Positions 464 through 64,000 of a stretch of 64,000 nucleotides of DNA are shown piece by piece. The position numbers were made by a program, and so were the translations under genes. The notes under the pieces are model-generated. The model had not been told where the DNA came from. It searched no databases and worked only from the letters and a program-made list of their open reading frames with translations. This DNA is from Corynebacterium mustelae (lineage in GTDB: Bacteria; Actinomycetota; Actinomycetes; Mycobacteriales; Mycobacteriaceae): contig NZ_CP011542.1 in assembly GCF_001020985.1 (NCBI RefSeq), positions 1,426,001 through 1,490,000 of the forward strand. Direction: 5' to 3'. Numbering within the stretch: the first letter of the stretch is position 1; each line of letters starts with the position of its first letter.

Positions 464-859
464 ATAAGGTATGTGAGGGTGATGTGTTAGGGGGGCGTGT
501 TTATCGTAACTTTTTCTTTCGTCGCGCAGAGAAAAACTGTTCTAAAACTACATTTTTCTGACAGAGAAATTGTTTTTGAGGGACTAGATCGTTGAAGAAC
601 AAACACCCGCAGAGTTAAGCAAAAGTTGGGCGCGCTGCATGAGATGACGGTGTATGAGCCAAAAGTTGAGCTTATCGACGGTTTACCTCAAGCCCACCGT
701 ACTACTAGGCGCATATGTATAAGGGGAAACATTGGCTAAAACGGAATGTGAGTGGCTAAGGGGGCGTCGAAAAGCTCAAAATACAGCTACTAGATGTAAG
801 GAAGACCCTTGGGGTACAGTTGCCACATTCGGTGTGCGCCACAAAATTTAGAGTAGGGT
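464..859. other. intergenic region between divergent genes
   Basis: About 400 bases between the divergent RNA ligase and MFS genes. It is more AT-rich than the genes on either side and must hold both promoters. It contains one exact copy of the dispersed 13-mer (763-775) and two nearby occurrences of AAAAGTTG(G/A)G. No convincing open reading frame or RNA gene was seen. Confidence 0.5.
763..775 (+). repeat. dispersed 13-mer, copy 1
   Basis: Exact GGCGTCGAAAAGC in the intergenic region before the MFS gene. One of 13 exact copies of GGCGTCGAMAAGC in the window. Confidence 0.8.
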
Positions 860-2090
860 ATGTTTCCAAAAAAGCTGATTCTTCGGTTTCGCGCAGGTTG
901 GTCCGGTAAAGACAGAAAATTTAGTTTCACTTTCACCACACTATGGGCAGCCCAGTTTGTCCTCCTGCTGGCGGCACAAGGCAGCGCAATGGCGATCACG
1001 TTGACCGGTGTATGCTGCCGGAAAATCGGCTGCCTTGTTGGGGGTGATGATGGCCATCACCTACGGCACGATGATCTATTTGTCGCCAGTGATTGGGGCG
1101 TTGCTAGATCGGTATTCCCGCAAGATGGGGATCATATTTGCCGACTCCGTTGTTGCGATAAGTAGCGTAGGTTTGGCGGTGGCGGTGTCTCACGATGCGG
1201 ATATTCCTGTGGTTCTTACGTTGGTGTTTGTTCACAGTTGTGGCATGAGTGCCCAGCAGTTGAGCCTGCAAGCAAGTGTTCGGGAGCTTCGCACGGAGGA
1301 AAATCTGACCAGTGCAGCCGCATTGGTGGCGCTGATTGACAATATTCCGCTGTTTCTGGGGCCCATTGTTGGGGCCACAGTGTACACACTTGCGTCCCCA
1401 GCGGCTCTGTTTGCTGTCGAAGCCATTGTGGCAACTGTTGCGGTTGTTACTGTGGCATTTCTTCCTTTCCCGGCGCGGCAACACCGAAAGATTTCTGGCG
1501 GTGTGACTGTAGGATTTCGTTTCATTCTGGCGGAACGGGATCTTCGCCAGGTTCAGGGTTCATTTGCTGTTCTGAATTTGGCTAATGGGCTGGCATTACC
1601 AGCGTTACTTGCTGTGGTGATAAGTGCGGAATCGACGTGGCCGGAGTCGTTTCGGCTTAGTGTGTACAATATTGCGAATGCTGGCGGCCTAGTGGTGGGT
1701 GCGGCATTGGTCTTGTGGGTTGGGCGTTGGCTTCCTCGGTCGGTAATTGTGCTGGCAGGCATTGTGGGTGGGGCGGTGTTTGGCCGTATGGTGTTGCCGT
1801 TGGTTCTGGGTGTTTTCGCGTTGGTGATTTCGGCGAGTTTCGTGCGCAACGTGTCTGCTCAATGGGCAAATACTCCGTTGACTGCGTTATGGCAGGAGCG
1901 CACTCCTAGGGATATTCAGGCATCTGTGTTTGGTGCCCGTCGGTTTCTGGGGCAAGGGGTGTATCCGCTAGCGCTGTTGGTGGGTGGCTGGTGGGCTGAT
2001 TACGGCAGTTTGGGGGTGCTTTTTATGGCGTGTGCCGTTGTGGAGCTCGCTGTAGCGGGTTTCCTATGGCGAAGCAGGGTACTGGTGTAA
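860..2090 (+). pseudogene. MFS exporter (MFS_3 / enterobactin-exporter-like), frameshifted near the N-terminus
   Basis: The frame from the ATG at 860 encodes a short basic N-terminus and the first membrane helix (about residues 29-48, LWAAQFVLLLAAQG region). It then runs out of frame at about 1004-1010. The rest of the transporter continues in the next frame, from YAAGKSAALLG at about 1011 through about ten membrane helices to the stop at 2088-2090. An MFS loop motif (GALLDRYSRK) lies between helices 2 and 3. Removing one G from CCGGTG near 1006-1009 would join the two parts into a normal protein of about 410 residues. A GTG at 1008 could give a 360-residue product lacking helix 1, which is unlikely to work. 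A possible -10 box TAGAGT (849-854) lies 5 bases before the ATG. The interruption could also be a sequencing error. Confidence 0.65.
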
Positions 2091-2316
2091 GTAGCCTAGT
2101 GCATGTGTGTGCAGAAACGAGGTGGATTCGTTAGTGGCTAAGTAGTTCGTTAACTCTTGTGCTAGGGGGTGGCTGCGGCAGTAGTCATTTTCAGGAAGTT
2201 GCATGAAAATCCTCGTGTGAGGGGAAGGAGAAAGAATAGAATCTTCAGACTGGGTCGTCTTTATTTCCCATAGCTAACAGGCATCGGGGGCGGCGTTTTG
2301 TGAGAAAGGATTTTTG

Positions 2317-3039
2317 ATGGAGAACCGTATCGCACAGGCGGAAGCTACTTTAGGGTGCCTGTTGCCCGCAGACTACCGGGAGTTTCTCCTCAACCCGGCC
2401 AATGCTGACCATGAGATCACCCAGTATTTTTGTAACTTGGATGAAGTCATTGAGTGGACTCAAGATTTTCCGTTCACTTCCGACCAGCCGGTTCGCCAGG
2501 AGCCAGAACCGATGCGGAATCTTCAAGGTGAGATGGGCCCTGGCGACGTCGAAAAGCTTTACGACGCTCTCGTTGCCTACACCACCGAACACTACGAAAA
2601 ACCCGCACACCACGGTGTGGTTCTTCTGGATGGAAGCGTGCTCGGCCCGCATACCGTCCTCGTGCTGCGTGGTCGTGCCCACGGGGAAGTATGGAACTGC
2701 GAAATCGACTACGAGTGGGTAACCATCGAACCGCGACTACACCCCATCACACACCAACCCCTCGACTTTGCGCACTGGCTTAAGCTTCAACAAGACCCCT
2801 ACCGGTTGACGGCGCTGCCGAAGAAGCAGGTAACAGAGCTGAGCTACCCCAAAACTAGCACTGAGGGGAAGACCGCCATGCGGTACCACCTGCACCGAGG
2901 CGAGCTGAAAGGAATAGGCGAGGCTGAAATCGCAGTGCTGAAGAAAATCGCCGAAATCCCCGAAAACGCGCAATTCCTCGACCCCTACACAGGCACATGG
3001 CAACCACTGCGCGAGGGATACCCAGTGGCGTGGTCGTGA
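2317..3039 (+). CDS. SMI1/KNR4 (SUKH) family protein
   Basis: A 240-residue protein. The N-terminus has the SUKH signature: an acidic helix, then LGCLLPADYREFLL and an N-x-A element (residues about 10-35), followed by a small beta-rich core. Many SUKH proteins are immunity proteins to polymorphic toxins, but others have unrelated roles, and no toxin is visible nearby. The C-terminal half (LDFAHWLKLQQDPYRLTALPKKQ, then GKTAMRYHLHRGELKGI) is not part of the core SUKH fold and is shared closely with the paralogue at 38046. The ATG at 2317 is preferred to an upstream TTG because AGAAAGGA lies 8 bases before it. The gene is followed after 25 bases by the 950-residue DUF6493-like gene, suggesting an operon. 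Confidence 0.75.
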   Translation: MENRIAQAEATLGCLLPADYREFLLNPANADHEITQYFCNLDEVIEWTQDFPFTSDQPVRQEPEPMRNLQGEMGPGDVEKLYDALVAYTTEHYEKPAHHGVVLLDGSVLGPHTVLVLRGRAHGEVWNCEIDYEWVTIEPRLHPITHQPLDFAHWLKLQQDPYRLTALPKKQVTELSYPKTSTEGKTAMRYHLHRGELKGIGEAEIAVLKKIAEIPENAQFLDPYTGTWQPLREGYPVAWS

Positions 3040-3064: not shown

Positions 3065-5917
3065 GTGAACAACCACTCCCCACTGACGAAGAAAATCTGG
3101 CGCGCCTTGAAGGAAGCCGACAGTGAACAAGCCCAGCTAGAGCTCATCGCCAGCTACCCACAAGCCGCAGACATAGCCGCCGCCTACGTGGCTAGGTGTA
3201 CCAGTAATGAAAAGTGGAGCGGCCAGCACACCTACACCCCAGGTGGGCGGCTATCGGTGGTGCTGGTGCACAAATACGCACTCCCCACCCCTAAAAAACG
3301 CCAGTACCTGCACAATTGGGCCATCTTTATCAAAAGCGCCCTTGAAGAGAACTACCCCGACCGCGATGTCTTCCTCCAGCGGTTCCCCGAGCACCTTCAC
3401 CACGCGTTTTCTTTAGGGTTGCCCGCTTTCGGCCCCATCGGTGCCGCGGTGATCGCTGCCTTGGAGAAGAACGTCCTTAGCCGCGAGAAGGCACTTGAGT
3501 ACTTGTGGCAGGACCTTGCCAGACCCATAAGGCCCAAAGACCGCAACCAGTGGGCCCACATTCTTCAGTCATGTATCCATCCCACGCACGAGGAAATGCT
3601 GGCGCACCTTGGGATTATCCGGCAACTGGTGGGAACCGGCGAATCAGCAATGCTGGAACTGTTTATCCCACCGCTTCTGACACACCTAAGCCCTGAAGAA
3701 GCCGGTGACCTTGCCCTCGCAGGCCTGTACGCCAACACGAAAAAAGCCAGGCAAGCCGTACTCGACGCCCTCGCCGATGCCCCCAGCGTGGTAGGTGGCG
3801 CCGTCGACAAGCTTCAAGAGCGCATCGCCGAACTCACACACGCACCCAACCCCACCACGGCGACCTGGAACAAACCCCCACCCCTATGGCAAATACAGCC
3901 CCTGACGTGGAAAGAACCCACCGCAGACACCCTACTCGCAGCACTACGCGATGGGGAGGCTGAGCAGGCGCGGGCATACGCGGTACAGCTTGCCTACACA
4001 GACTGTGAAGCCGCACGCCGGGTGCTGCGCGGGTCGGGGTTGTGGGAAAAATGGGCGAAAAACCCAAGGATTTCGTGGGCTACACCTGGGAAATGGCACA
4101 CCATCAACTCGCTTTGTGACGACGCCCTCGAAGCACACCTAGGGAAGATCCCCACGATGCTGTCTGCGCCCTCGTTTCCCGATCTGCGGATCACGATCGA
4201 CGATCTGCTCACGCGACTTGGCCGTTACGAGGAAGCTGAATGCGACGTACTCGCACCCGACCTACTGCTTGCACTGTGCCGACTCGATGTTCGGGGCGTA
4301 TCAAGCGCGGATCTGCTAGAAAGCCCCGTCATGGTGACAGACCGCGCCAAGAACCGGTGGCCCGCAATCGAAACCACCACGGCCTACGTGGACGATCCGT
4401 TCGTGGAACCGGAACTCACACTGGGGCGAGAGAGATGGAAACCCGAATCGGTGCAGCTTCCTAAGTCGCTTGCGGCACGCTTTACATTAAGCCCCAGTGT
4501 GCTGGGCGACTCGCTCACCCCGTTTACGTTCCCGCACTTCGGCGACGCCTGTTGCACGCAATTATGTTACTCCGGTTTCGTGGACCCCAACCCCGTACCC
4601 GTTGCGGAGCAGCTTGCCCACCGCGCCGAACCACTGGGGGTCGGGGCACTGATGAACATGGTGGGGATTCAACGCGCGCTCAAACCAGCACTGAACGAGC
4701 GGCTGATGCAGGCGATTAGCCAAGCGTGGGAGCGCGGACTTGTGCGCCCCGAACGGGTCGACGTGGCGTACCTCGACTGGAAGCCCCATGGGTGGGCGCA
4801 GATTCCGGCGCTGGTCACGGCGATGCGGGAGCTTGTCGACGCCGGAATGCTGTCGCTGTGCTGGCCCATCTGGGACGGAATACTTACGTCCATGGCGAAG
4901 GAGAAGCGGCTACCCGCCGGTGCCACGAACGTGGTGGCGGCCATGACCGACTACCTGCCTGCGGTGATCGCTGCACACCCAGACGCAGCACACCAGATCC
5001 CAGGGGTCCAGGCCATGGCTGCGCGTGGCGGAAAGTCCCAAGCCGTCGTGGGTGCGGTGAGCCTAGCTGCGGCGCTGGGTGTTAAGGCTGCACCGGAACC
5101 GGTGAAAGAAAAACATGTGGAACTTCCCGTCCAACGCCCAACCGAGGCGGAACTAAACAAACTGTGGCCGAAGACAATCACAACTTTGGCCGAATACCCA
5201 GACGGCGCCCACTACCGCCTCGAACTGGTTCCCACCACAACCACACAGAACCGGTTGGACACAATCATCACATTCCCACACGATGAATCCAAGTACCGGT
5301 TTAACCCAGACTCCAACCTTATTGTTGCCATGTGCTCGTGGGGGTACGCGCCCACCGCGACGGAAACCCACTTCCTGTTCGTCGAAGGTGAGAAAGCGTG
5401 CCTAGCCGACACACCCCGACCGTGGAAACAGTGGAAAGCAGACGGCAGGGAAGGGCCACTCCACCTGCCTTTTACAAACTCCATGGTGGCGCTGCTGCTT
5501 GTGTGCGCCACTGGGGATTTCGCTCGTAGCTATGCCCAAGACCAGCTCATTCATGTGGCATCCCAGAGGCGGATAAGCCCTAAGGCCGTGGCAACAGTCA
5601 TGGCCGAGGTTGTGGCGCTGCCAGAGTTCAATCCTGGAAAACTCGTCCCCGCGATCACCGACACAACCGTGGCGTGCCTGTGGCCGATCCTCACCGAGTC
5701 ACTTAACCACGCCGCCCTAGAAAAACCACCACGGTGGTTGGGCAGAATAGTAGGTGCTGTGGCCGAACACCTTGGCCTGCTGGTGGCGGCCACTCACACT
5801 GGCCGTATCCCTGCGGCCGCGTGGGCGGGGCTCCATGCACTTGCCGCGCAGACTAAGAAAACTGCCGCCGTGAAGAAAGCACAACACATCGCGCCTAACC
5901 TGCGCGTCGATCAGTAG
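3065..5917 (+). CDS. large helical-repeat protein, DUF6493-like (paralogue A)
   Basis: A 950-residue protein with no signal peptide or membrane helix, probably cytoplasmic and made mostly of HEAT-like alpha-helical repeats. It shares landmarks with the genes at 11297, 15734 and 24618: a linker of the form W-x-P-x-x-x-W (near residue 285), LSAPSFPDLRI with a following RL and ALCRLDVRG (residues about 370-420), an MN-x-x-G block with a following W-x-RG-L (about 530-560), a W-P-I-W-D helix (about 600), and a C-terminal VACLWPILTESL plus PPRWLGRI (about 860-900). These match my recollection of actinobacterial DUF6493-family proteins, whose function is unknown. The N-terminal region differs from the other three. 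The GTG start at 3065 follows GAAAGAATTAACACAAG, a weak ribosome site. Coding is C-rich, unlike the AT-rich genes that follow. Confidence 0.7.
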   Translation: MNNHSPLTKKIWRALKEADSEQAQLELIASYPQAADIAAAYVARCTSNEKWSGQHTYTPGGRLSVVLVHKYALPTPKKRQYLHNWAIFIKSALEENYPDRDVFLQRFPEHLHHAFSLGLPAFGPIGAAVIAALEKNVLSREKALEYLWQDLARPIRPKDRNQWAHILQSCIHPTHEEMLAHLGIIRQLVGTGESAMLELFIPPLLTHLSPEEAGDLALAGLYANTKKARQAVLDALADAPSVVGGAVDKLQERIAELTHAPNPTTATWNKPPPLWQIQPLTWKEPTADTLLAALRDGEAEQARAYAVQLAYTDCEAARRVLRGSGLWEKWAKNPRISWATPGKWHTINSLCDDALEAHLGKIPTMLSAPSFPDLRITIDDLLTRLGRYEEAECDVLAPDLLLALCRLDVRGVSSADLLESPVMVTDRAKNRWPAIETTTAYVDDPFVEPELTLGRERWKPESVQLPKSLAARFTLSPSVLGDSLTPFTFPHFGDACCTQLCYSGFVDPNPVPVAEQLAHRAEPLGVGALMNMVGIQRALKPALNERLMQAISQAWERGLVRPERVDVAYLDWKPHGWAQIPALVTAMRELVDAGMLSLCWPIWDGILTSMAKEKRLPAGATNVVAAMTDYLPAVIAAHPDAAHQIPGVQAMAARGGKSQAVVGAVSLAAALGVKAAPEPVKEKHVELPVQRPTEAELNKLWPKTITTLAEYPDGAHYRLELVPTTTTQNRLDTIITFPHDESKYRFNPDSNLIVAMCSWGYAPTATETHFLFVEGEKACLADTPRPWKQWKADGREGPLHLPFTNSMVALLLVCATGDFARSYAQDQLIHVASQRRISPKAVATVMAEVVALPEFNPGKLVPAITDTTVACLWPILTESLNHAALEKPPRWLGRIVGAVAEHLGLLVAATHTGRIPAAAWAGLHALAAQTKKTAAVKKAQHIAPNLRVDQ

Positions 5918-8348: not shown

Positions 8349-9125
8349 TTGAAGGGGACAGGTGTCGGCGTCGACAAGCTCACAAGTGCAGAAGAAACCC
8401 TCACAGTACCGCTGCCTGACGAGTACCGTGAATTCTTGATCACCCCAGAAAATGCTGGCAGCGAAATCGTGGCACGGTTTCACGCGCCGGGCAATGTCGA
8501 TTGGTCGCAGGACTTTCCCTTCACAGCAGAGACACCCGTATACTGTGACCCGCTCACGGACAATCCTGCGGCGTGGGAGGATAACACGCTTGCGGAAGAA
8601 GCGACGAAACCGCTGTATGGGCAGCTCATGCGGGGGATCGTCTTTCTTGCCGAGGAAGGCTATGGCCAGTGGAGTGTGCTGGTGTTGCGCGGTGCGGCGC
8701 GGGGACAAGTGTGGGCGTTGTGTCCCGAATGGTGGACGGGAATGGAAGCGTACCCGCGGCGTCACCCACTCACCGGCGAAATTTTGGGGTTCGCGCAGTG
8801 GCTCACGTTGCAACAAACGCCGCTGAAGTTCCTCCACCTCACCAAGAGGGAGCGGCAGGGTTTATTGTGTCGCAATGAGCAGTTTTCTTCATTGTGGATC
8901 AAAGCGGCACGTCAGCTCATTGCCAGTGGGGAGGTGACGGGGATGACCGCGGAGGAGGTTTCGGGGATTCGCCGCAAAGCGGATGTGCCCGAGGCCGCGC
9001 TGTTTCGCGACCCGCGGTCAGGGGACTGGTTTCCGTTGGCACAGGCGACGGTGGTGGAATGGAGTAAGGGGAACAAAGTTTTGCCTGTATGGAATGTTCC
9101 AGATGAAGAGGAATCTGAAAACTAG
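8349..9125 (+). CDS. SMI1/KNR4 (SUKH) family protein
   Basis: A 258-residue protein starting at TTG. Residues 12-30 carry the SUKH N-terminal pattern (SAEETLTVPLPDEYREFLI). The central part (QWSVLVLRGAARGQVWAL, then HPLTGEILGFAQWLTLQQTP) aligns with the paralogues at 2317 and 38046, and so does the C-terminal VPEAALFRDPRSGDWFPL, but overall divergence is much larger. The acidic tail is extra. The N-terminal codons (GVDK) are formed by an exact copy of the dispersed 13-mer, so the 5' end of this gene may have been shaped by that element. It is the first gene of a plus-strand run that continues with the two FGE-like genes and the 1100-residue protein. Confidence 0.7.
   Translation: MKGTGVGVDKLTSAEETLTVPLPDEYREFLITPENAGSEIVARFHAPGNVDWSQDFPFTAETPVYCDPLTDNPAAWEDNTLAEEATKPLYGQLMRGIVFLAEEGYGQWSVLVLRGAARGQVWALCPEWWTGMEAYPRRHPLTGEILGFAQWLTLQQTPLKFLHLTKRERQGLLCRNEQFSSLWIKAARQLIASGEVTGMTAEEVSGIRRKADVPEAALFRDPRSGDWFPLAQATVVEWSKGNKVLPVWNVPDEEESEN
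8367..8379 (+). repeat. dispersed 13-mer, copy 2
   Basis: Exact GGCGTCGACAAGC inside the SUKH gene, read as G-V-D-K. Confidence 0.8.
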
Positions 9126-11296: not shown

Positions 11297-14200
11297 ATGA
11301 CCGCAACAGCGAACCTCGTTGCCGCACTCGACATTTACAAGGGACTCGGCTGGGCCACGATCACTAAACCGCAGGATATTCTCACCCTGCCGACCCCTAC
11401 CGATGAGCAGAAAAATACTGCCCAACTGGGCATTAAAGCCTTGGGTACCCTCGACTGGGATTCCCACGAGTGGGAAGAAAACTGTGGCCATCAACCGCGA
11501 TACCTTGGGATTTTCGCCATCGTCATGGGTGTAGATGCGACAACCGCGGCACGGATGACTAAGGACCAGCACCCGAAAGTCGTCGCAGAATGCGTTGCGC
11601 GCCGGGGCGAGCGGTACGTGCGGGACTACGTGGTGGCGGCGTCGACAAGCGTACGGCCGCTGGCGGATACACTCCTTGACACCAGCTGCGTGGCTGCGGT
11701 CCGCCTTGTTGCGGGCGTGGGTGGGGTACACATTGCTGTGCCGGAAAGCCTCGACTACCTGCATTATTGGGGCGGGGTACTCGCAATCCAGGCGGGGGCG
11801 ACTGCCGTAAGGGAGATACTGAGTAAGGAATATCCGGGCTGCTTTCCCACACGTGAGCAACTTTTGGCGCGTTACGAGGAGCACTATTCGGTGGCAGAGT
11901 CGATGCAGGCGGAGCTGCACGCAACCGTGGGGCGGGGGCTGGTCGCCGGTGTGAAAGCTGGGGCGGGCAACCGCGATGATCTGCTTGCGTGGATCGCCCG
12001 CGATCTGGAAAAATGCTCAAAACCGAAGCAGCGCCGACGCCTACTGCAAATGCTCACCGAGGATCTTGAACTTAGCGACGCCGACATCACCCGTAACCTA
12101 GGTGTGCTGGCAAGCCAGATCGCGGCGAGCCACGCCGACTGCGTGAAGGCGTATGGCCTGCGGCTTCTCGCGCTTATGCCGGAGCCTGAGCTTGCCAATA
12201 CCGCACTCGGCGCCCTGTATGTGCCCACACTAGCGGGGCTGAAGTCGGTGCTCACCACGCTGAGCAAGCGCAACGATCTCACGGAGCAGACGAAGCAGCA
12301 CCTGTTAGCGCGACTAGAAGAACTTTATACCCACGACGATCCGAAGGCAGCGGCACTTGCGGGGAAACTGCTCGCAGCGTGGGGTAAAACCCCTGCACAG
12401 CGGGTAGAAACGGCGCCTGCGCCAGTGGGGAATTGGTGGCAGCCCACGCCAAGCTTTACCCAGCCGGGGCGCTTCGAGGTGGGCGAAGTGACCGTGGCCA
12501 ACCTTGCGGCGGCGTTTGCGCAGGCCAACTACGGTTTTAACCCGGAATCTAACCACCATATCGAGCGGTTTTGGGCGCTTGCGACCCAGCTTGCCTTTCA
12601 TGACCGTGACCAGGCGGTGCGAGCGGTGCAGGACGCAACAATGAACTGGGGAAACGGCATGTTGGGGCTTGTGTTTGATGAGCCCAACGGGGGCTGGTTC
12701 GAAGACTATGAGCAGTCGTCGCTGTTCTATGCCCGTGAGGTGCGACTGGTCCAGAATTTCGGTGAGATCCCCTGCCTGCTGTCTACCCCAAGCACCATGG
12801 ATTTCGGCATCGATTTTGCTGACCTCATTGCACGTCTTGAGGCGTACCGCGCAGCAAACGCGAGCGTGAGCGAGGCGGACTTGCAGATCGCACTCATGCG
12901 GCTGAAAACTTCCGAGCTGGATTGGTCAGCGGCGGCGGATCAGGCACGCACCTTCGACCTTCAGTTTATTGAAACCTCACAGCCGGTCACCGTGACTGTG
13001 GGCGAGGTGATCGCCGACTATATTTTCGACCAGATCGACGATCCCGGCCTTGTAGCTGACCCAGAGGTGGGGGAGTTTGTCGCCCAACCTGTCGCAATTC
13101 CGCACTGCTTGAGTGTGTTCCCGGACCGTCTCAATGCGCCGCGTGGCGGGGTTGATCCTACGCTGTTCCCCACCTGGGCGGATACCCCGCACCTGGGTTT
13201 GCGGGCGACAAAGAAGAGTAGCTGGTTGCGGTGCGCCGCGCACGCTGAGACCGTTGCCCAGGCTGAGCATGTGCTTTCCCCAGGTGTAGCCATGAATCTG
13301 CTGGGTGCGCTGCGGATCAGTGACCCTGAAATCTTCGCCCGCGTGCATGATGCCGTCACGCTAGCTTTTCGACGCGGAATCCTACTCCCCGGCACCGCTA
13401 ACGTTGAGTTTTTAGACTGGCGCACACACGCCACCAGTTTCACTGGGTTAGCGCAACCACTCAAGGAGCTGGCCGGTGACGGTTTGCTTTCGGTGGTGTG
13501 GCCGATTTTTGACGATGTGTGCCGCATAGCCGCCGCCCGTTCCGCCACTACCCCAGGTGCGGTGGAAGCAGTGCAGGCCATGGCTGATCTTGCACCCCAT
13601 GTGTGCGCCGCCGTGAAAGAAGGCGTAGCGCCGAAAGAGGCACTTGATGTGCCTGGCCTTCGGGCGTGTGCGGCAAAGACGGGCAAGTCAAAGCTGGTCA
13701 CGGCGGCGCAGAAAGCGATGGGCACCTTGGGTGTGGATGCGCCGAAGCAGGAAACTGGTGCCGGGAAGAAGGTGGAAACTCTCAGCGAGGAGGAGTTCGC
13801 AGCCCGGTGGGGTGAAACCTTCGCCCCCGCACGCATTCATGACTCGCAGGTAAACGTGGAGGTTGGTTTCGGCAAGTCTGATTCTTCTGGGGAAGACCTG
13901 TGGGTTGTGCTCAAACTCGGCGAGGACGAAAAATCCCAGTACGTGGTGAACGCCCCATTGTGCGTGGAAACCTGGAACGAGGACGCCACCCTGGTGGTTA
14001 CCCGCCGCTCACTGATAGATGATGAGGATGCGGAAGGCAGAACCGTTATCCTCGCGTGGCGCCGCGGTGCTTGGTTCGAAACTGATGATTGGGACATTCA
14101 AGCAAGCGACCCCATTAAGGATATTCCCGCGCTGATGGAAGTCTCCGTTGCGCTCGTGGCGTTTCTGGGAAGCTACGGGAAACCGTACCCCGTGTCCCTG

Positions 14201-15472: not shown

Positions 15473-15733
15473 TGGGTAATGCTGTGGGCGTCGACAAGCA
15501 AGAGCACGGGCATATACTGGCGAAACGATTGCAATGTTGGCAATGGGCACGAAAAACAACCCGTGAAGCGATCGTATTGGGGGGAGCTTATTTTGTTTGG
15601 GTACTAGCTGCGGGCACGGTGTTTTCTAAGATACGAATGTGTGTTTGGCCATTTTTGGGGGCTTGTGTTAGCCAGCCATGCTACAAAAGGTATGTTTACG
15701 TGTTTTCCGCCAAGCATTTAAAGAGAGCATCCT
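15473..15733. other. spacer with degenerate echo of 21810-21920
   Basis: A 96-codon frame from an ATG at 15472, overlapping the upstream stop as TAATG, crosses this region and enters the next gene. Its product has one hydrophobic stretch but no family resemblance, so it is not called as a gene. The segment GGGTAATGCTGTG plus the exact 13-mer plus AAGAG resembles 21823-21855 (GGGTAACGGTG, GTCGACAAGC, AAGAG), as if an ancestral intergenic sequence was duplicated with the neighbouring genes. Confidence 0.4.
15487..15499 (+). repeat. dispersed 13-mer, copy 4
   Basis: Exact GGCGTCGACAAGC in the spacer after the first YbjN-like gene. Confidence 0.8.
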
Positions 15734-18700
15734 ATGACCAAACCCCCTGTTGCACCGCCTAAGCTGCGCAAAGCTGTTGAGATTTTCAAAGAACTCGGCT
15801 GGGACGACGCTGAAATTTCTGATGCACCCATCTTGCCCTTAGGGACCCCCGAACAGCAAGAGCTCGTAGTCAAAGGGCTAGAAAAAGGCGCCTGGAAAAA
15901 ATGGGTGGATGATTCTTACAGCGGCACCACTTACGATCTTGTTCAGGTTAGTCACACCATGCTGGCGCTGTTCGCGATCCGATGTGGGGTTAGCGCCAAG
16001 CGAGCGGTGTGGCTTTTGGATTTCGCGGCTGTACGTGAGTGGCCAACTGCTGCCCAGTGTGCGCTTCAACGCGGACCTAAGTATGTGCGCGACGTAATGG
16101 CTGGCATTGAGAAGCGTGATCGTTGGGGCGACGACACTTCCGTGGGGGCGTGGGATCTATGTATGTTGTCATTTCTCCTGATCGTTGAAGACTACGGCCT
16201 TGATTTTGAAGTCCCTGCGTATCCCTGGTATTTGCGGGATTGGGCCGGGATTGTTGCGTATGCCTTCTATGGGAGGGAGGGGGCATACTTCCAAGGCGAG
16301 GTTGACCAGATTCCACCGAAGGAGACGTTGCTTCGCTCCATGCGTGCGCATGTGGAGATGGCTGTGGAGCAGGGAGTTCCGTTGTGGGGTGCGTTGGGGT
16401 ATGTGCTTCGTGCGGGCTTAGAAAACGGTGTGTTTACAAGAAAAGAGGTGGTTGATTATACGGTGGCGGCGGTGAATGCGCCTGCCCGTCCGAGTGAGCA
16501 TAAGCGCTGTGTGGAGCTTTTGTGCGGTGACCTTGCGATTACTGATGATGAGATTCGTGCTCATGCGGAGACGTTGGGGGCGTTGATTGCATCGGGTGAT
16601 GCTGTGCTTATCGACGCCGTGGGGGCGCGGTTTTTTGCTGTTGCGGCTGCTGCTCAGGCGGCAGAAGTGGCGGTGGGTGCGTTGTATGCTTCCACGCAGA
16701 AGGCACAATTGGTTGTGTTGCAGGGATTATCGGCCCGTACTGATCTGACGGGGGAGTTGCTGACACCACTTGTGCAGAGATTGCAGGAGCTTGCAGGGGC
16801 TCGGAATAAGCAGGTTGTGAAGCTGGCTGCTAGTTTGCTGGACCAGGCGGGTGAGCAGCTAGAACCTGCCACACCGCTGAATGAAATGGAAGCACCAACC
16901 GTTACGTGGGAGCCTGTACCGCCGGTGTGGGAGGTTGAGCGTTTTGAGGTGGAGCAGGTCGATGTGGATGCGTTAGTGGCGGCACAGCAGGCAACATCAC
17001 CGGATAAATATGACAGCGGGCCGAGCTATGACATTGAGCTTGAGCAGTTCTTTGCCATCCTCGTGGCCTTAGCACAAACGGACTTTCAGTCCGCACAGCG
17101 CTATATCGATTCCCAAACTGATCACGATGCTCCTTATATACGAACGGTTGGTAGTGATCCGGTTGGGGATCGTGGATTCGCGGTATGGTACAACGTTGGG
17201 TCGTTTCCGGTGTTGTTATCGCAGCCTTCTTTTGTGGATTTGCGGATTATGCCAGAGGATTTCTTTGCGCGGTTAGAAACATATCGTTTGGCTGGTGTCC
17301 CGGTTTCTTCGAGGGATCTTCTGCTTGCGTTGTGTCGGTTGGATGTGCGTGGGCATGACCTGCATGAGCTTATTCGGCGGGTGAGAGAGTTTCCGTTGCC
17401 TTTGCGGTGGTTTGGTGATGAGGAATACCTCGGCACTGTTGCTGATGTTGTGGAGGAATACCTCTGTGAGGAGGAGTTTCTTGCCACGGTGTGGCCCGAG
17501 ACTGGGTTGATCGATTCAAACGGAGGTTTTGCCGTTCCGAGAGTGTTGGAGCGGTTGGTCAATCATGGTTCGGTCCACTATTTCACTTTCTATGAACCGT
17601 TTATTTTCCCGCTCATGGGAGACGGGTTTTTTAAAGAGTTCGGTGCCACGGGCCATAGTACTTTCCAAGGGGCGTGCCTTGCCGCCGTCGCCAAGCAGTT
17701 GGCGCGTTGCTCTACGCCGTTGAGTCCTGGTATTGCTATGAATCTGATTGCTGCCCCGCGATTGAATGCTAAGGGCAAGGCTGTGGGGCTTGATGAGGCG
17801 ATTCGGGCGGCGTGGCGCAGGGGGTTGCTAATCCCAGGTGTTGCTGACATCAACAGCATAGGGTGGAAAAACCCTGTTAAGAGTTTCCATGGGCTGGATG
17901 AGGTTTTCCGTGATCTAGCTCATGACGGGATGCTTGCCCTGGTGTGGCCGTTGATGAACGACATTCTTGTTGCGGCTTCTCAAGCGGTGCGTCCACATAA
18001 GGGCGCCGGTGAGATTGCGGAGTTGACTGTTGAGCTGTTGCCGAGTGTGCAGCAAGCAGTTGAGGCTGGCGTGGCTGATCCACATGTGTTGGAGTTGCCG
18101 GGGATTCGGGCTTTTGGCACAAAGAAGGGCTCATCGAGGTTAGCGGAGGCGGCGCGTGCTGCAATGAAACTTTTGGAGGGTACTACATCACCAGCAGCGG
18201 ATACTCGCGTTGAAGAGCCTCAACCTGAGGTCGAATTTAGTGGTGAGTTCACAGAGCTATGGCCCGAGAACCGTGGAGAAGGTCCGGCGCGACCAGACAC
18301 GGCGACTGTTACTTTCGAGGAAATAGAGGACGATGAAAATGCATTGTTCTGGCGCTCGGATGGTCTTTTTGCTGTGGTAAGCGTCCCCGAATACCCAGGA
18401 AAGGCATTCCGAAAGTTCCCATTTTCCTCCATCCATCCGTGGCGATTCCACGAACTAAGCAATGGAAAAACCGCAACTCTGCGCGAGGAGCACCTCTGTT
18501 TTGATGGTTCAACGTGGCAGCTGGAAAGCGCGCCTGATACCCGCAGCTGGAATAAGGAATTTTATCCTTCTTCGGAGTTCCCGGATAGTTTCCTCTACAT
18601 TCTGTGCGCCTTCCTTGCGGTGCCGAAAGAGCCAAAGGGCGCTTTCGAAGAACTCGGTCGCCAACTAAATCTGAATACGATTAGTGCTGCAAGTATGAAA

Positions 18701-39880: not shown

Positions 39881-40075
39881 GGGAGACCCCTTTGGGTGGC
39901 GGATAAAAATAATAAAACATTATCAAAGTTATATTCTTATTATATAGCAGTATTGCTGTAGGCTTAATGTTTTGCGAAGGAAACTGCCTGATTGTGGGCA
40001 TTGTCACCGTTCCAATTGCTTTTCGACGATCGTCCGTGGCCAGAAAGCTGTGTTTTCCGCATGGGCGCTAGCGCG

Positions 40076-41495: not shown

Positions 41496-41659
41496 AGCAT
41501 AACCAATTACTGACACCCAATCGTGGCTAATGCATAACAGGAGTAATAATTTTTAGTGCGAGAAAACTCACAATCGAATATTGGTGCGGATCGATTAAAA
41601 GCCCTTGTCACTGGCTCACGATTGACATTTCCGATCGGGCAAAACAAAAGAAAGTGGAC

Positions 41660-46531: not shown

Positions 46532-46544
46532 GCTTGTCGACGCC
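46532..46544 (-). repeat. dispersed 13-mer, copy 9
   Basis: GCTTGTCGACGCC, intergenic, directly after a small hairpin with T run. Confidence 0.8.
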
Positions 46545-48474: not shown

Positions 48475-49167
48475 GTGAAACGCACATTTGCACTTATTCT
48501 TCTAGCCTGTAGTTTTATGATGGCAAGCTGCGCTGTCATCACTGATCACATGGCTTCCCAACTGCCGGAGGCGTCGATAAGCGATAGCAACGCTGACCCC
48601 TACGTGGCCATGCTGCACGGCTTGCCTGCCCGCGTATTCGATCCGAATCTTCCAGAATACAATCGGCAGGCCTTTGGTCAGCGTTGGAGCGATGACGTTG
48701 CTGTTGAAGGCGGGCACAATGGTTGCGATACACGCAATGACACCCTTGCTCGTGATCTGACTGAGGTGGCTTTCAAGCCAGGCACCCGAGATTGTGTAGT
48801 GACAAGCGGTGTGTTAGCTGATCCTTACACGGGTGCAACGATTAACTTCGTGCGCGGAAATGGCACCAGCGAGGAAGTTCCGATCGACCATGTGGTTGCG
48901 CTTGCCGACGCCTGGTATGCCGGGGCGCATCTGTGGGAAGAATCTAGGCGGCAGGACTTCGCTAATGATCCGATAAATCTTCAAGCGACCACGAAGGACG
49001 CTAATCGTGCGAAAAGTGCAAAAACTGCGGATGCTTGGTTGCCGCCAAATCCGGATTATCAGTGTGACTACGCACGCAGGCAAATTGAAATAAAGACCCG
49101 ATATTATTTGGCGGTGACGGATGCGGAGCGGTTTGCTTTAGAGCAGGTTTTAGGCACTTGTTTATAG
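48475..49167 (+). CDS. secreted HNH-family nuclease (DUF1524), lipoprotein
   Basis: About 230 residues from the GTG at 48475. The signal peptide KRTFALILLACSFMMASC ends with a lipobox-like MASC, so the protein is exported and probably lipid-anchored. The nuclease part has RDCVVTSGVLADPYTG (about residues 103-118), then IDHVVALADAWYAGA with the catalytic D-H (about 137-151), and FANDPINLQATTKDANRAKSAKTADAWLPP (about 160-189) with the N-x-x-x-K metal site. Such proteins are common in actinobacteria and probably degrade extracellular nucleic acid. The variant 13-mer GGCGTCGATAAGC lies at 48570-48582. The start overlaps the end region of lysG by spacing only (16 bases). Confidence 0.85.
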   Translation: MKRTFALILLACSFMMASCAVITDHMASQLPEASISDSNADPYVAMLHGLPARVFDPNLPEYNRQAFGQRWSDDVAVEGGHNGCDTRNDTLARDLTEVAFKPGTRDCVVTSGVLADPYTGATINFVRGNGTSEEVPIDHVVALADAWYAGAHLWEESRRQDFANDPINLQATTKDANRAKSAKTADAWLPPNPDYQCDYARRQIEIKTRYYLAVTDAERFALEQVLGTCL

Positions 49168-51506: not shown

Positions 51507-51519
51507 GGCGTCGAAAAGC
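51507..51519 (+). repeat. dispersed 13-mer, copy 10
   Basis: Exact GGCGTCGAAAAGC between the GT87 gene and ilvD. Confidence 0.8.
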
Positions 51520-51550: not shown

Positions 51551-53392
51551 TTAATCAACCTGGCGGACGGCTCCTTTGTCTGCGCTTGTAGCCATCTTCG
51601 CATAGGCGCGCAGCGCTTTCGAGACTACCCGGTCGCGGTTAACCGGAGTCCACGGATGTGGCCGCGCGGCCATTGCTTTTCGACGCCGATCGAGTTCATC
51701 CTCATCAACATTCAAGTTCAAGACCCTATCCTTGACTGAGATGGTAATCGAATCGCCATTCTCGATCAGGCCAATGACACCTTCATGTGCTGCCTCCGGG
51801 GAGATATGCCCGATGGATAGCCCCGAGGTGCCACCAGAGAACCGGCCATCGGTAATCAACGCACAGACTTTACCAAGCCCAGCCCCCTTCAAGAACGAGG
51901 TTGGATGCAGCATTTCCTGCATGCCTGGGCCACCAGCAGGGCCTTCGTATCGGATAACTACTACCTCACCCGGCTGAACCTCACGCTTTAAAATGGTAGA
52001 AACCGCTTCTTCTTGTGACTCACACACCCGAGCTGGCCCGGTAAACTCCCACAACTCTTCATCAACACCAGCAGTTTTGAGTACTGAACCGTCGGGGGAA
52101 ATATTGCCCCGCAAAATCACCAACCCGCCGTTTTCAGAATACGCATGAGCAATATCGTGAATACAGCCATTTTCCACATCAAGATCTAATGAATCCCACC
52201 GGGTGGACTGACTAAACGGTTCAGTAGTGCGTACCCCTCCCGGCGCGGCGTGGAATAGCTCAATGGCTTTATCGATGGCTTTACCACCACGGATGTCCCA
52301 GTCATTGAGCCAGCCGTCAACGGTGTCGTATGCGACGGTGTGCACTGATTCGTCAAGCATTCCCGCGCGGCGGAGTTCTCCTAGGATTGCAGGGATTCCG
52401 CCTGCCCGGTGCACGTCTTCGATGTGATAAGTGCCGTTCGGAGCAACTTTGGAGATACATGGGATTTTATGGGAGAGTTCGTCAATATCGGTTAAGTCGA
52501 AATCGATTTCGCCCTCTTGTGCAGCCGCCAGCGTATGCAGGATTGTGTTGGTGGAACCACCCATTGCCATGTCGAGTGCCATTGCATTGCGGAATGCAGC
52601 TTTGGTGGCAACGCTGCGGGGTAGTACTGATTCGTCGCCTTCACCGTAGTATCGCGAGCACATATCCATGATCATTTCGCCTGCCTGGATAAATAAGTCT
52701 TTGCGGGCAGTGTGTGTGGCAAGCGTGGTGCCGTTTCCGGGTAACGACAGCCCCAATGCTTCTGTTAGGCAATTCATGGAATTGGCGGTGAACATGCCGG
52801 AACAAGAGCCGCATGTCGGGCAGGCGGATTCTTCGATGGTGGCCAGATCAGTATCGGAAACCGCATCGGATGCGGATGCGGTGATTGCCGTGATGAGATC
52901 GGTCGGGGCATGTGCGATTCCGTCAACCGCGACAACTTTGCCAGCTTCCATGGGGCCGCCGGAGACGAAGATCGCGGGGATATTTAACCGCAATGCAGCG
53001 TTGAGCATGCCCGGGGTGATTTTATCGCAATTGGATATGCAGACCATGGCATCGGCTGTGTGCGCATTGACCATGTATTCCACCGAATCAGCGATGATTT
53101 CACGGGACGGTAGAGAGTACAACATGCCACCGTGCCCCATAGCGATTCCATCGTCGACGGCGATGGTGTTGAATTCTTTGGGGACGCCGCCTGCTTCACG
53201 CACTGCGTTTGCCACAATGTCGCCAACATTTTTCAGGTGAACGTGGCCGGGAACAAACTGGGTATAGGAGTTGACGATGGCGACGATGGGTTTGCCGAAT
53301 TCATGTTCTTTGGTGCCGGTGGCTCGCCAGAGGGCGCGAGCTCCTGAGGCATTACGGCCAACGGTGGTGATGCGGGAACGAAGCGGGATCAT
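51551..53392 (-). CDS. ilvD: dihydroxy-acid dehydratase
   Basis: A 613-residue iron-sulfur enzyme of valine, leucine and isoleucine synthesis. [12 protein letters not shown] (about residues 121-132) and [20 protein letters not shown] (about 193-212) supply the cluster cysteines. [17 protein letters not shown] and [21 protein letters not shown] (about 520-540) are also family motifs. An exact inverted copy of the dispersed 13-mer falls in the coding sequence near the C-terminus (R-R-K-A). The gene is separated from ilvBNC by the PH-domain and MscCG genes, as expected for Corynebacterium. Confidence 0.95.
51675..51687 (-). repeat. dispersed 13-mer, copy 11
   Basis: GCTTTTCGACGCC inside ilvD. 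On the ilvD strand it is read as R-R-K in the third possible frame. Confidence 0.8.
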
Positions 53393-58581: not shown

Positions 58582-59634
<1,053 letters not shown>

Positions 59635-59699: not shown

Positions 59700-60351
59700 T
59701 TCCCGTTAGTGAAAATCGGGGTGGTGGACTGTACTCACAGTTACTGCGTGGTGGTTTCGGCTACGTTTAGGGCTGGGGGTGCGTCGAAAAGCGGCAGTGG
59801 TGCTGACGTATGGCGAATGGGAATCTGGCGATACGATAACTATCTTTTATCACCAAAATGTGCATTATTAGGTTGATCTCTATCGGGGGTAGGAGCAATT
59901 ATTGAAAAAGATTTCCGCGTGTCTAAAACCGTGTGGATGTAAAAGTTCATTACATTGAACTCTACGTCATTTGCTTATGGATGATGCAACTTGTGCGTGT
60001 ATAGACGGGTGACGTTTTCAATAAATCGACATTATTGAAAACCTAAGGTATGTTAGTAGGCAAAGCAAACTTTGTGGTGGTGTCTCATTGGCACTTGGCA
60101 AAAATCACATGGTGTTGCGGCGGAAAGGAATTTCAGTGACTTCGGTATTTCGATCGGCCGCGACTTGCCATCAAAGTTCCTGGAAATACGGCAGGCACTT
60201 GTGTAAATATGGCGACTCCGCGCGGAGATTGCAGCAACCCGCCCAGCAGAAAGCGCATGCACATGATCACTTCTCCTTCGACGATGACGACCTATTTGTG
60301 CTGTATAACACCGTCATGGGGCATGCTATCCATCCCGGGATGGGGCAGTCG
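59700..60351. other. upstream region of the CDF gene
   Basis: About 650 bases. It contains a one-mismatch 13-mer (59780-59792), an ATTATTGAAAAAG element near 59898 and the perfect inverted repeat at 60014-60042 that shares TTATTGAAAA with it. The frame of the CDF gene stays open upstream to 60088, but that extension is not protein-like. Confidence 0.45.
60014..60042. promoter_or_regulatory. candidate metal-responsive operator
   Basis: GTTTTCAATA and TATTGAAAAC form a perfect inverted repeat with 9 bases between, upstream of the metal exporter; a third half-site TTATTGAAAA is near 59899. Confidence 0.5.
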
Positions 60352-61456: not shown

Positions 61457-63259
61457 ATGGGTTTTTCCACACCAAGTTACGATCTCTACGACCTTTTTAG
61501 CCGCATCGACCGCGGTGATCTTCAACTACCTGACTTCCAACGGGAATATCGGTGGAATGTTGACCAAATCCGATCACTTTTGGTTACCGTGCTGCGGGGT
61601 TACCCGATGGGGTCGATCATGGCGTTGGATACCCGCAATGAACCAATGCGGTTTCGGCCCCGGCCGATTCATTCCGCACCAGATACTTCCGTTGCTCCAG
61701 GGCTATTGTTATTGGATGGTCAGCAACGCCTTACCACCCTGTATCAATGTTTACGGGGTGATGGTCTGGTGGAATCGGTGGATTTCCGTAATAAAAAAGT
61801 GCGGCGCCGATTCTTCATTGATGTGCGTACAGCAGTCTCTGCCGATGTTATGCCAGACGAAGCCGTGATCTCCGTCGATGAAAACGGCAAGGTTATGTCG
61901 CATTTCGCCCAAGAAATCCCTGGTGGCTTGGCTACGCGAGAGCGCGCGCTCGCAGCGGGATATATTCCAGTTTCGGATTTGCTTTTCGACGCCGGTACGG
62001 ATCAGCTGTTTGAGATCGCCACCAATCTCGACGCTGAGTCAAAAAAACAGGCGAAACAATTCTATACCCGCATAATCAAGACATTGGTGCGGTACGCGGT
62101 TCCGATGATTCGGCTCGACCGTGAAACAGCCCAAGCAGGAATCGGGTCAATATTCGCCCAAGCGAATTCCATGGGCTTGCAAATGGATGTATTTGAATTG
62201 CTTACGGCGGTGTTTGCCACCGAAGACCCCGATTTCCGCATGCAAGATGACTGGGCTCAAACCGATGCGGTGCTGCGGTCCCATCCGGCGCTTGATGGAA
62301 TAGACCGAACGGACTTCCTCACCGCTGTCGCGTTGTATGTCACCGCGAAAAAAGGACGCGCCTCAGGGTTTAGGGAATCAGTTCTGCAACTAAGCCTCGC
62401 GGAATACAAACCAGCTGCTGAGACCATGCGCACCGCTTTCCACGAAGCCGCGATTTTCATGTCCAGGCGCTGTATACTCACCACGGAACAAGTTCCGTAT
62501 TCATCCCAGTTGATTCCACTCGCGGTGATGATCGCAGTCCTGGCAGAAGAACCACATATATTGGCGGAGCAAGCAGCGTGGGATCGAATCCACCGCTGGT
62601 TCTGGTGTGGTGTGTTTGGGGAACTATACGGTTCACCAGCGTTGATGGTGCGCATAGGCACAGACGTTGACGAAGTAACAAAATGGGTGCGCGACTGGAA
62701 CGGCTCGCAACAAGTACCACTGCCGCGATCGATATCGCAAGCCCGCTTTGTGGAATCCCGATTGCTATCAGCTGGCCCAAATTCCGGATTATATAAGGGC
62801 ATCTATGCGCTGATTATGGGGCGTGGAGCTAAAGACTGGCGCACCGGAAAAGTTTTTGACAGCGATACTTTCACTGAGCAAGGTACCCACTTCCGCCGGA
62901 TATTCCCCCGGACGTGGTGTGACGCCAACGGCATTGACGGGATATTGGCAGATTCTGTTCTTAACCGCACTCCCATGGGCAGGCGAACCAACGTTATGGT
63001 TGAAGAAGCTTCACCAGCACGCTACCTGTACCGGATTCAGTCAAAGAGCCTACTAGACGACGCCGAATTTGACGCAGTGCTAGAGTCCCATTTATTAGAC
63101 CCCAATCTTTTGCTTAAAGCCCAAGCATCAGAATTCTTCAATGATCGGCGCAAACGGATACTACGCATGATCGAAGAAGCAATGGGGGTTGCAGCCGTCC
63201 ATGATGTTGACGAAACTAACCTATATGCGGGAGAAGAAGGTCCGGGCGCTTTCGCTTGA
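61457..63259 (+). CDS. DUF262-domain protein (GmrS/DndB-related ParB-like fold)
   Basis: A 600-residue protein. LYDLFSRIDRGDLQLPDFQREYRWNVDQIRSLLVTVLRGYPMGSIM (about residues 10-55) and LLLDGQQRLTTLYQCL (about 82-97) are the two hallmark motifs of DUF262, in which DGQQR forms part of an NTPase-like active site. The rest is helical and includes a W-rich segment RIHRWFWCGVFGELYGSPALM (about 375-395). No HNH nuclease (DUF1524) domain is fused, unlike in type IV GmrSD enzymes. It stands alone without a restriction partner. An exact inverted 13-mer lies inside (L-F-D-A). Confidence 0.8.
   Translation: MGFSTPSYDLYDLFSRIDRGDLQLPDFQREYRWNVDQIRSLLVTVLRGYPMGSIMALDTRNEPMRFRPRPIHSAPDTSVAPGLLLLDGQQRLTTLYQCLRGDGLVESVDFRNKKVRRRFFIDVRTAVSADVMPDEAVISVDENGKVMSHFAQEIPGGLATRERALAAGYIPVSDLLFDAGTDQLFEIATNLDAESKKQAKQFYTRIIKTLVRYAVPMIRLDRETAQAGIGSIFAQANSMGLQMDVFELLTAVFATEDPDFRMQDDWAQTDAVLRSHPALDGIDRTDFLTAVALYVTAKKGRASGFRESVLQLSLAEYKPAAETMRTAFHEAAIFMSRRCILTTEQVPYSSQLIPLAVMIAVLAEEPHILAEQAAWDRIHRWFWCGVFGELYGSPALMVRIGTDVDEVTKWVRDWNGSQQVPLPRSISQARFVESRLLSAGPNSGLYKGIYALIMGRGAKDWRTGKVFDSDTFTEQGTHFRRIFPRTWCDANGIDGILADSVLNRTPMGRRTNVMVEEASPARYLYRIQSKSLLDDAEFDAVLESHLLDPNLLLKAQASEFFNDRRKRILRMIEEAMGVAAVHDVDETNLYAGEEGPGAFA
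61981..61993 (-). repeat. dispersed 13-mer, copy 12
   Basis: GCTTTTCGACGCC inside the DUF262 gene, read as L-F-D-A like copy 5. Confidence 0.8.
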
Positions 63260-63300
63260 CCGGTAACACGAACGAAACGATCTAGGGAAAAGGATGCGCG

Positions 63301-64000
63301 GTGGCGTCGAAAAGCAGTGCAGCGGTTGCCGTAACGGCAGCACTCCTGTTGGGCGCTTGCACGGTGGAGAACCTAGCCGTCGTCCAAACCCGCACCAGCG
63401 AAGAAATCGCGGCACACGCCCATCCCAATCTGGACCTCAAAGACGCACTTAGCGCCAACCTCAACCGCCACGTGGCCCAACATTATCCGAAACATCCTGT
63501 TGTTCTTGACGGTGCCGAAAACGCTGGGATAGACGCCTCCCGCCACTTCTTTGACAGCTCCGAGACAGTCGTCGTTTCCGGAACGGACATTTCTGATCAA
63601 TTACGCGCCGCATCCATAGCCGTAGTAAGCCACGCACCGATGCTGACAATCCAAGACAGTAATCGGAATGCAGTACTCGCAGAGATCCACCGTCTCGGTG
63701 CCCGCTACGTACTAGTAGTTGGCGACACCAAACTCGCCGCAACCCAAGGGGAGCTCACCATCATCAAAGACCCAGGAACTGCGGAAGCTCTCGGTATGTT
63801 AACGGCTTTTTCTTTCAAGCCGAAAGGGATCACGTTCCCCCACGACGTTCCCCGCGCAGTAGCCGCACTCGGCGGCGAGCAAGCAACCTTGCTCCAACCC
63901 GGCTGGATACGCCCAACAACTACATCAACTCCGCAACCGGCGGTTCGATTGCAACCGTTTCCCGCACAATCACGTCGGGATGCTGATACCGCTCCCATTG
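63301..64000 (+). CDS. exported lipoprotein, cell-wall-binding-repeat-like (runs off right edge)
   Basis: From GTG at 63301 an open frame of 233 codons reaches the window end. The signal peptide (residues 1-20, AAVAVTAALLLGAC) ends in a lipobox LGAC. The domain from about residue 62 (PVVLDGAENAGIDASRHFF, then SETVVVSGTDISDQL, AASIAVVSHAPMLTI and LGARYVLVVGD) has the order of a cell-wall-binding repeat 2 unit: A-x-R-x-x-x, a strand V-V-V-x-G, A-A-P-LA and a strand V-x-x-VG. The first codons (ASKS) are an exact 13-mer. ATCTAGGGAAAAGGAT precedes the GTG. The end of the gene is missing. Confidence 0.65.
   Translation, partial: MASKSSAAVAVTAALLLGACTVENLAVVQTRTSEEIAAHAHPNLDLKDALSANLNRHVAQHYPKHPVVLDGAENAGIDASRHFFDSSETVVVSGTDISDQLRAASIAVVSHAPMLTIQDSNRNAVLAEIHRLGARYVLVVGDTKLAATQGELTIIKDPGTAEALGMLTAFSFKPKGITFPHDVPRAVAALGGEQATLLQPGWIRPTTTSTPQPAVRLQPFPAQSRRDADTAPI
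63303..63315 (+). repeat. dispersed 13-mer, copy 13
   Basis: Exact GGCGTCGAAAAGC at the very 5' end of the lipoprotein gene, read as A-S-K-S. Confidence 0.8.

Follow-up and report, generated by a model that had tools for sequence, protein, structure and literature searches.

Why should one short word recur, exactly and on both strands, throughout a 64-kb stretch of the Corynebacterium mustelae chromosome? The stretch, called the window here (G000 C1:1426001-1490000, G000 being the genome from which it is taken), holds many copies of a word originally described as a 13-mer, GGCGTCGAMAAGC, whose essential part is an 11-base core, CGTCGAHAAGC. The observation itself is confirmed: the motif is real, genus-wide and maintained at the level of the DNA. 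It is probably a DNA uptake sequence belonging to a natural-transformation system in Corynebacterium, with which the distribution, conservation and dialects of the motif described below are consistent.

The core word and its maintenance as DNA

The exact 13-mer occurs 14 times in the window on both strands together, against 0.01 expected, and none of 100 dinucleotide shuffles reached this number; with up to two mismatches, 38 copies are found against 3.7 expected. The original prediction had listed 13 exact copies, all of them correctly placed, its total falling one short through a missed minus-strand copy at 4831-4843. It had also estimated about ten near copies, which is too few, the actual number being 24; those named at 2545, 30541 and 59780 (plus strand) and at 30048 and 40018 (minus strand) are found there, and the one given as 3799 is really at 3800. 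Across the 3.47-Mb genome of G000, the exact 13-mer is present 162 and 165 times on the two strands (327 in total), and the pattern read backwards 0 and 4 times. The repetition is thus genuine, and the length proposed for the unit is an over-long reading of the core CGTCGAHAAGC, which is present genome-wide in 1,204 copies, 598 and 606 by strand, against 16 and 14 for the pattern read backwards.

Within a chromosomal sample of 424 kb, composed of 18 evenly spaced 20-kb stretches and the window, the core is found 157 times versus 1.2 expected, an enrichment of more than 100-fold. Its edges are sharp, as single-base variants mostly number 0-6 copies in this sample where about one is expected; the exceptions are located at position 6 (T 32, G 11 and C 7 copies), at position 7, which is free, and at position 11 (T 12). 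The GG before the core is a preference only, being present at 53-56% of the core copies in G000. A flank consensus drawn from the 45 intergenic copies alone shows G or C at positions -13 to -6, T or G at -5 to -3, GG at -1 and 0, and A at 12 to 16; the G recurring upstream every three bases in GC-rich species is probably a codon effect. Shared sequence around the core ends about 20 bases either side, and the lack of any beyond the flank preference indicates that there is no larger repeat. Consequently, neither of the outcomes that the original prediction had set against itself is observed: the genome-wide count is far above expectation, and the flanks do not trace the copies to one larger mobile repeat.

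Copies inside genes are read in all three frames and in both orientations, as had been claimed. Genic and intergenic copies were separated with a simple codon-score open reading frame picker, whose calls are approximate. In 324 genes predicted in this way, 106 copies are present against 2.6 after within-gene shuffling of synonymous codons (standard deviation 1.6, highest 7, 30 runs), a procedure that keeps the protein and the codon usage of each gene; about 97% of the genic copies are abolished. The core is denser outside predicted genes, where 84.8 kb hold 52 copies, than inside them, where 339 kb hold 105, the intergenic figure being inflated since genes cut by the ends of the stretches are not called there; when cut genes are allowed for, 45 of 168 copies are intergenic.

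Maintenance between species was assessed by comparison with a sister genome, G159, the nearest to G000 among 161 sampled genomes by the ilvD gene (85%; next 76%). It carries 1,309 cores, and its syntenic contig aligns over 53.9 kb of the window with an identity of 84.7%. Of the 31 window copies matching CGTCG[AT][ACT]AAGC, 25 are aligned and 6 unaligned; 23 of the aligned copies are still the motif in G159, compared with 32% of 2,324 composition-matched control positions (p=4e-10), and conversely, of the 26 copies that G159 has in aligned DNA, 23 are matched by the motif in G000. Three copies are intact despite a flank identity of 55-65%, and two differ at the free position 7, still being scored as motif. 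Per position, identity between the two genomes amounts to 0.92-1.0 in the core and averages about 0.84 over 25 bases each side, with the fall located at the core edges. Together, the synonymous shuffle and the conservation at orthologous sites support the earlier inference that selection acts on the DNA itself.

The canonical core is absent from acquired DNA of the same genome, a depletion seen in two elements. Contig C2 (39.9 kb), a conjugative plasmid, encodes a TrwC-type relaxase and two TraG/TraD-type coupling proteins. Over the 39.0 kb comparable, the phage contig C3 (42.8 kb) has exactly the same sequence as a chromosomal stretch that contains an integrated phage; this prophage extends from 900652 to about 944 kb on C1, beside the tmRNA gene ssrA (900.7-901.0 kb), and encodes an integrase, a terminase, a portal and a tape-measure protein. 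C3 and the prophage, as the same element, are counted once; the presence of C3 alongside the integrated copy suggests that the phage also exists excised or extrachromosomally, or that the sample contained phage DNA. No canonical core is found in the 82.7 kb of C2 and C3, where 29 would be expected at chromosomal density, nor in the 40 kb of the prophage region examined (900-940 kb); the dialect words described below occur once in C3. The 40 kb preceding the prophage hold 18 cores, and samples from 950 to 1130 kb hold 4-12 per 20 kb. In megablast searches with the first 20 kb of each contig, C2 and C3 gave no match to plasmids and C3 none to phages. For the TrwC/MobF relaxase of C2, the best relatives listed are encoded by plasmids of Dietzia and Rhodococcus, with a protein identity of about 43%. 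One copy of the motif is present in the 43 kb of phage BFK20 (recorded host Brevibacterium flavum), which is not used as evidence.

Spread and dialects across the genus

The canonical core and a dialect, CRTCGGHAAGC, were counted in 161 Corynebacterium genomes, to which thresholds were then applied; the canonical core predominates in 85 and the dialect in 35, and 41 are classed as neither. Nine genomes are dialect-only (G006, G076, G117, G128, G134, G161, G167, G174 and G176), with 221-552 dialect and 5-41 canonical copies, and several genomes at first scored motif-free turned out to be dialect carriers. In 40-kb samples of ten such apparent negatives, a variant was found in G076 and G167 only; G006 showed none in its sample, yet has 486 dialect copies genome-wide, so that samples of this size can miss a dialect. 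A quite different dialect may be present among the 41 motif-free genomes. The 24 genomes examined from other families of the order stay close to background, their counts differing from the reversed control by no more than about twofold. In G128 the few canonical cores are distributed unevenly between the strands, 24 being forward and 5 reverse, for which a local repeat is a possible cause.

The wider pattern CRTCGRHAAGC was counted genome-wide for 15 of 21 named Corynebacterium loci. It is present in 964 copies in C. gottingense, 800 in C. lipophiloflavum, 705 in C. tuberculostearicum, 650 in C. kefirresidentii, 601 in Corynebacterium sp. 74A and 550 in C. phoceense, followed by C. hylobatis (473), C. 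lemuris (461), C. oculi (439), sp. NML98-0116 (382), C. macginleyi (364) and C. mastitidis (153). Counts are low, with reversed controls in brackets, in sp. 13CS0277, 58 (25), C. jeikeium, 57 (39), and sp. SN15, 40 (25). In five named genomes from other genera the counts were 69-158, and the controls 46-216.

On a tree of ComEC, ComEA and HolA from 37 taxa, the dialects follow phylogeny, as they do in Neisseriaceae. Five of the nine dialect-only genomes are placed on it, C. phoceense is left out, and three named species are labelled as dialect from their locus counts, C. tuberculostearicum being mixed. The eight dialect-labelled taxa (the five dialect-only genomes and the three named species) form one clade with a support of 1.0, which also includes the motif-free G014. 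A motif-free clade is composed of C. jeikeium, SN15, G010, G032 and G171, and the motif-free G156, G175, G062 and 13CS0277 are located elsewhere on the tree.

A proposed uptake sequence weighed against other chromosomal signals

Among the options named in the original prediction, the uptake sequence fits best. In the passages of the literature drawn on here, the DNA uptake sequence (DUS) of Neisseriaceae is a 10-mer with about 1,900 copies in meningococcus and gonococcus and with dialects that follow phylogeny (PMC3630211); it is conserved at 97% identity versus about 85% in its surroundings (PMC2397512), and its atypical distribution in mobile elements has been used to find integrative and conjugative elements (PMC7371117). 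The Corynebacterium motif resembles it in being a short non-palindromic word, over-represented on both strands and enriched outside genes, with dialects, conservation above its surroundings and depletion in mobile DNA; it differs in its sequence, in its Gram-positive genus and in the company of com genes and a Tad/Flp-type pilus locus. The uptake signal sequence (USS) of Pasteurellaceae has a 9-bp core, an extended form and two dialects (PMC12616744), and in Haemophilus influenzae close, hairpin-forming USS pairs are common at terminators (PMC5217627). The short core with extended form and dialects is shared with the USS, whereas sequence and phylum are different and close hairpin-forming pairs are rare. 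A requirement for uptake sequences has been called unique to Neisseria and Pasteurellaceae (PMC3630211), and a 2025 review describes bacteria as generally taking up DNA from any source, Neisseria being an exception (PMC12236230). Another actinobacterium, Micrococcus luteus, lost its transformability when comEC was deleted, and it also requires genes for the biogenesis of Flp pili; the term "uptake sequence" is absent from the main text of that paper (PMC4322843). M. luteus is thus comparable as an actinobacterium with comEA/comEC, dprA and tad genes, and in Corynebacterium the motif and its dialects are the new element.

Natural-transformation genes, which accompany the DUS and the USS, are present in G000 and in motif-free species too. 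G000 encodes ComEA (helix-hairpin-helix, with a weak SLBB match) adjoining ComEC, together with DprA, an A24 prepilin peptidase and two T2SSF proteins. The best matches to its ComEC belong to Corynebacterium, which, with the motif shared by named relatives, agrees with the placement of G000 in this genus. ComEC was found in all 161 genomes, DprA in 38 of 38, the A24 peptidase in 37 of 38, and ComEA at 36 of 38 com loci, the two lacking it being those of G112 and C. phoceense, the latter with a truncated ComEC as well. Of the 60 genomes searched for TadA, 41 are motif-free, 16 carry the motif and have T2SSF matches that are weak or single, and 3 are others. A match was obtained in 58 of them, in G024 only at E=5e-4; the two without one, G098 and G142, are 90% and 53% complete respectively, G021 and G135 matched partly or in pieces, and in G094, which has no T2SSF match, TadA is located 117 bases from a contig end. 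The suggestion that motif-free genomes have no Tad genes is therefore rejected, and because TadA is so widely found, weak T2SSF matches look like divergence. Tad-operon proteins are present at every one of 20 loci selected by their T2SSF matches. In G113 the operon comprises a CpaE/Ssd-position protein, TadA (T2SSE) and TadB and TadC (T2SSF), followed by a protein of 66 residues in the Flp position (DUF4244) and two small ones in the TadE/TadF positions, where the names lacking a Pfam match are presumed from position.

ComEC frames of at least 640 amino acids occur in 25 of 36 motif-free versus 16 of 114 motif-bearing genomes (150 of the 161 have a listed length). The idea that the ComEC of motif-bearing species lacks a C-terminal domain is rejected, as Lactamase_B matched none of the seven ComEC scanned; in the three long ComEC scanned, the extra length is mostly placed before the Competence domain. 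In G135, which has about 320 motif copies, TadA and ComEC each match in two pieces, and frameshifts or assembly errors are possible.

For the uptake sequence, the following mechanism is proposed. A surface protein, most likely on the Tad/Flp pilus, would bind motif-bearing DNA, so that Tad pili would carry the recognition; the pilus would then bring the bound DNA through the mycolate envelope, ComEA and ComEC would pass one strand into the cell, and DprA and RecA would recombine it. The motif would in this way promote uptake. As kin fragments with the motif would be taken up preferentially, recombination would keep replacing broken copies with intact ones, and copies would accumulate in vertically inherited DNA and remain exact. 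A dialect-specific receptor is likewise presumed, the motif sequence drifting together with it and giving rise to dialects.

Several points weigh against an uptake sequence, the main weakness being that its support is genomic evidence throughout. Literature searches turned up no published uptake or transformation experiment for a motif-bearing species. Motif-free genomes have the com, dprA, peptidase and tad genes as well, so that the machinery does not predict the motif; strong T2SSF matches do occur in 104 of 120 motif-bearing against 13 of 41 motif-free genomes, a raw link in which phylogeny and divergence from the profile are confounders. No A24 peptidase was matched in G161, a genome with 468 dialect copies. 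The com loci and the tad loci of 20 genomes yielded no candidate for a motif receptor; the proteins in the TadE and TadF positions are not unusually basic, and they are not confined to motif-bearing genomes. The conservation test is restricted to BLAST-aligned DNA, outside which 6 of the 31 copies lie. Neighbouring pairs within 120 bases, among 213 CGTCGNNAAGC copies, are inverted in 13 of 14 cases, though short gaps are not in excess; pairs within 40 bases number only 5, so hairpin-forming pairs, common for the USS, are rare. Terminator hairpins are unlikely to be the main role on account of these few close pairs, inverted pairs at terminators being a frequent but not a defining trait of the USS and DUS. 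Finally, several of these patterns could also arise from a chromosomal protein that binds the word sequence-specifically and has no part in uptake.

This last possibility, retained in non-polar form from the nucleoid signal named in the original prediction, holds that the motif is the binding site of a nucleoid or chromosome-organising protein along the whole chromosome, each copy being under direct selection. It is considered unlikely, even though it too would lead one to expect orthologous conservation, a lack of polarity, absence from phage and plasmid, and a near-random scatter. The spacing of the 213 copies is indeed approximately random (mean gap 1.87 kb, coefficient of variation 0.92), with gaps below 200 bases making up 10.8% versus 10.1% expected. 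Such a site would, however, require selection for nine fixed bases at each of about 1,200 non-palindromic positions, roughly two thirds of them genic and in any frame (105 of 157). Furthermore, protein binding sites usually degrade gradually, whereas single-base variants of the core are hardly enriched, and a genome-wide change of dialect is hard to achieve through copy-by-copy upkeep. A macrodomain site of the parS/matS type, which would be restricted to the region of the origin or the terminus, is rejected, as cores are present in all 18 of the evenly spaced 20-kb samples.

Chi and KOPS are polar words and HIP1 is a palindromic octamer of cyanobacteria; like the motif, all are short words repeated chromosome-wide, and unlike them the motif is neither polar nor palindromic. 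A Chi-like recombination hotspot, read by RecBCD, AddAB or AdnAB, would account for a short non-palindromic word that is common in vertically inherited DNA and absent from phage and plasmid, but it is judged very improbable. Known Chi sites favour the leading strand. The GC skew of the samples changes from positive values, the last at 1.71 Mb, to negative ones, the first at 1.90 Mb, which suggests a terminus between these coordinates and an origin near coordinate 0; with the halves split at 1.695 Mb, 77 cores are on the leading and 80 on the lagging strand (p=0.87). This absence of orientation bias along the replichores leads to rejection of a Chi-type or KOPS-type polar signal and disfavours the polar forms of the Chi-like and segregation options raised originally, and the enrichment of the core is far above the Chi level.

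A compositional by-product, or one of replication or repair, accumulated in resident DNA with no role in uptake, has a precedent in HIP1, a highly iterated word that has no settled function, and age of residence would explain the absence from phage and plasmid. This origin carries very little probability here, since HIP1 is an 8-bp palindrome and the motif, at 11 bases, is not palindromic and has a sharply bounded core, extended flanks and dialects. Descent from a mobile repeat, or origin as a by-product of coding for a conserved peptide, has nothing beyond repetition in its favour and may be practically dismissed, being contradicted by the short reach of the shared flanks, the lack of canonical cores in the mobile DNA examined, the loss of genic copies on synonymous shuffling, the use of all frames and the conservation in G159.

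Returning to the uptake sequence, we lean, with some reserve, towards a wider conclusion: this may be a third, independently evolved uptake-sequence system and the first in a Gram-positive phylum, in which Tad/Flp pili of mycolate-enveloped bacteria would select kin DNA by an 11-bp word. Dialects would split the genus into gene-exchange groups, including the human-associated C. tuberculostearicum, C. kefirresidentii and C. macginleyi, and the system would be absent from the C. jeikeium-like lineage by loss or by having arisen after its split. Among the matches listed from titles and abstract openings of open-licence PMC articles, a collection with no preprints and few subscription journals, there is no report of an uptake sequence in Corynebacterium. 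In the passages available, a motif-discovery paper names three Corynebacterium species for their CRISPR repeats (PMC5217627), and a stem-loop survey has C. diphtheriae only in a table row (PMC2267715). If the conclusion is correct, a distant phylum evolved self-selective transformation anew, probably by means of another pilus, and natural transformation is suggested for a genus whose members include important industrial and skin bacteria. It would also provide a DNA tag to try in Corynebacterium genetics, a signal for spotting recently acquired DNA, such as the prophage here, and an independent case in which selection and molecular drive can be tested against each other.

Copies in the window and other repeated words

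Table 1. Positions of the 13-mer, the 11-mer core and core variants in the window.
Feature	Position	Strand	Remarks
exact 13-mer (core 765-775)	763..775	+	
exact 13-mer, overlooked originally	4831..4843	-	conserved in G159
exact 13-mer	8367..8379	+	conserved in G159
exact 13-mer	11638..11650	+	conserved in G159
exact 13-mer	15487..15499	+	not motif in G159
exact 13-mer	19172..19184	-	overlaps opposite-strand variant 19163-19173
exact 13-mer	24548..24560	+	G159: unaligned
exact 13-mer	37794..37806	-	G159: unaligned
exact 13-mer	37911..37923	+	G159: unaligned
exact 13-mer	46532..46544	-	G159: unaligned
exact 13-mer	51507..51519	+	conserved in G159
exact 13-mer	51675..51687	-	conserved in G159
exact 13-mer	61981..61993	-	conserved in G159
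exact 13-mer	63303..63315	+	conserved in G159
11-mer core CGTCGATAAGC	670..680	-	G159: unaligned
11-mer core	2547..2557	+	
11-mer core	3802..3812	+	
11-mer core	13364..13374	-	
11-mer core, T variant	16606..16616	-	
11-mer core, T variant	24246..24256	-	
11-mer core	30048..30058	-	intact in G159, flank identity 65%
11-mer core	30543..30553	+	
11-mer core, T variant	34245..34255	+	
11-mer core	34677..34687	-	
11-mer core	40018..40028	-	intact in G159, flank identity 60%
11-mer core	46901..46911	+	
11-mer core, T variant	48572..48582	+	C in G159
11-mer core	59782..59792	+	intact in G159, flank identity 55%
tolerated variant CGTCGTAAAGC	2556..2566	-	overlaps 2547-2557; not motif in G159
tolerated variant CGTCGTAAAGC	41488..41498	+	
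tolerated variant CGTCGTAAAGC	58635..58645	-	
weak variant CGTCGCCAAGC	17686..17696	+	
weak variant CGTCGAGAAGC	19163..19173	+	
dialect-like variant CGTCGGAAAGC	29143..29153	+	
weak variant CGTCGAGAAGC	31795..31805	+	
dialect-like variant CGTCGGCAAGC	46067..46077	-	
dialect-like variant CGTCGGCAAGC	48900..48910	-	

Other strongly repeated words, at about 10-14 copies per 40 kb, were observed in the stretches L065/L066 of G114 (C1:300001-320000 and 500001-520000) and L049/L050 of G032; these probably stem from repetitive genes and are not the motif.

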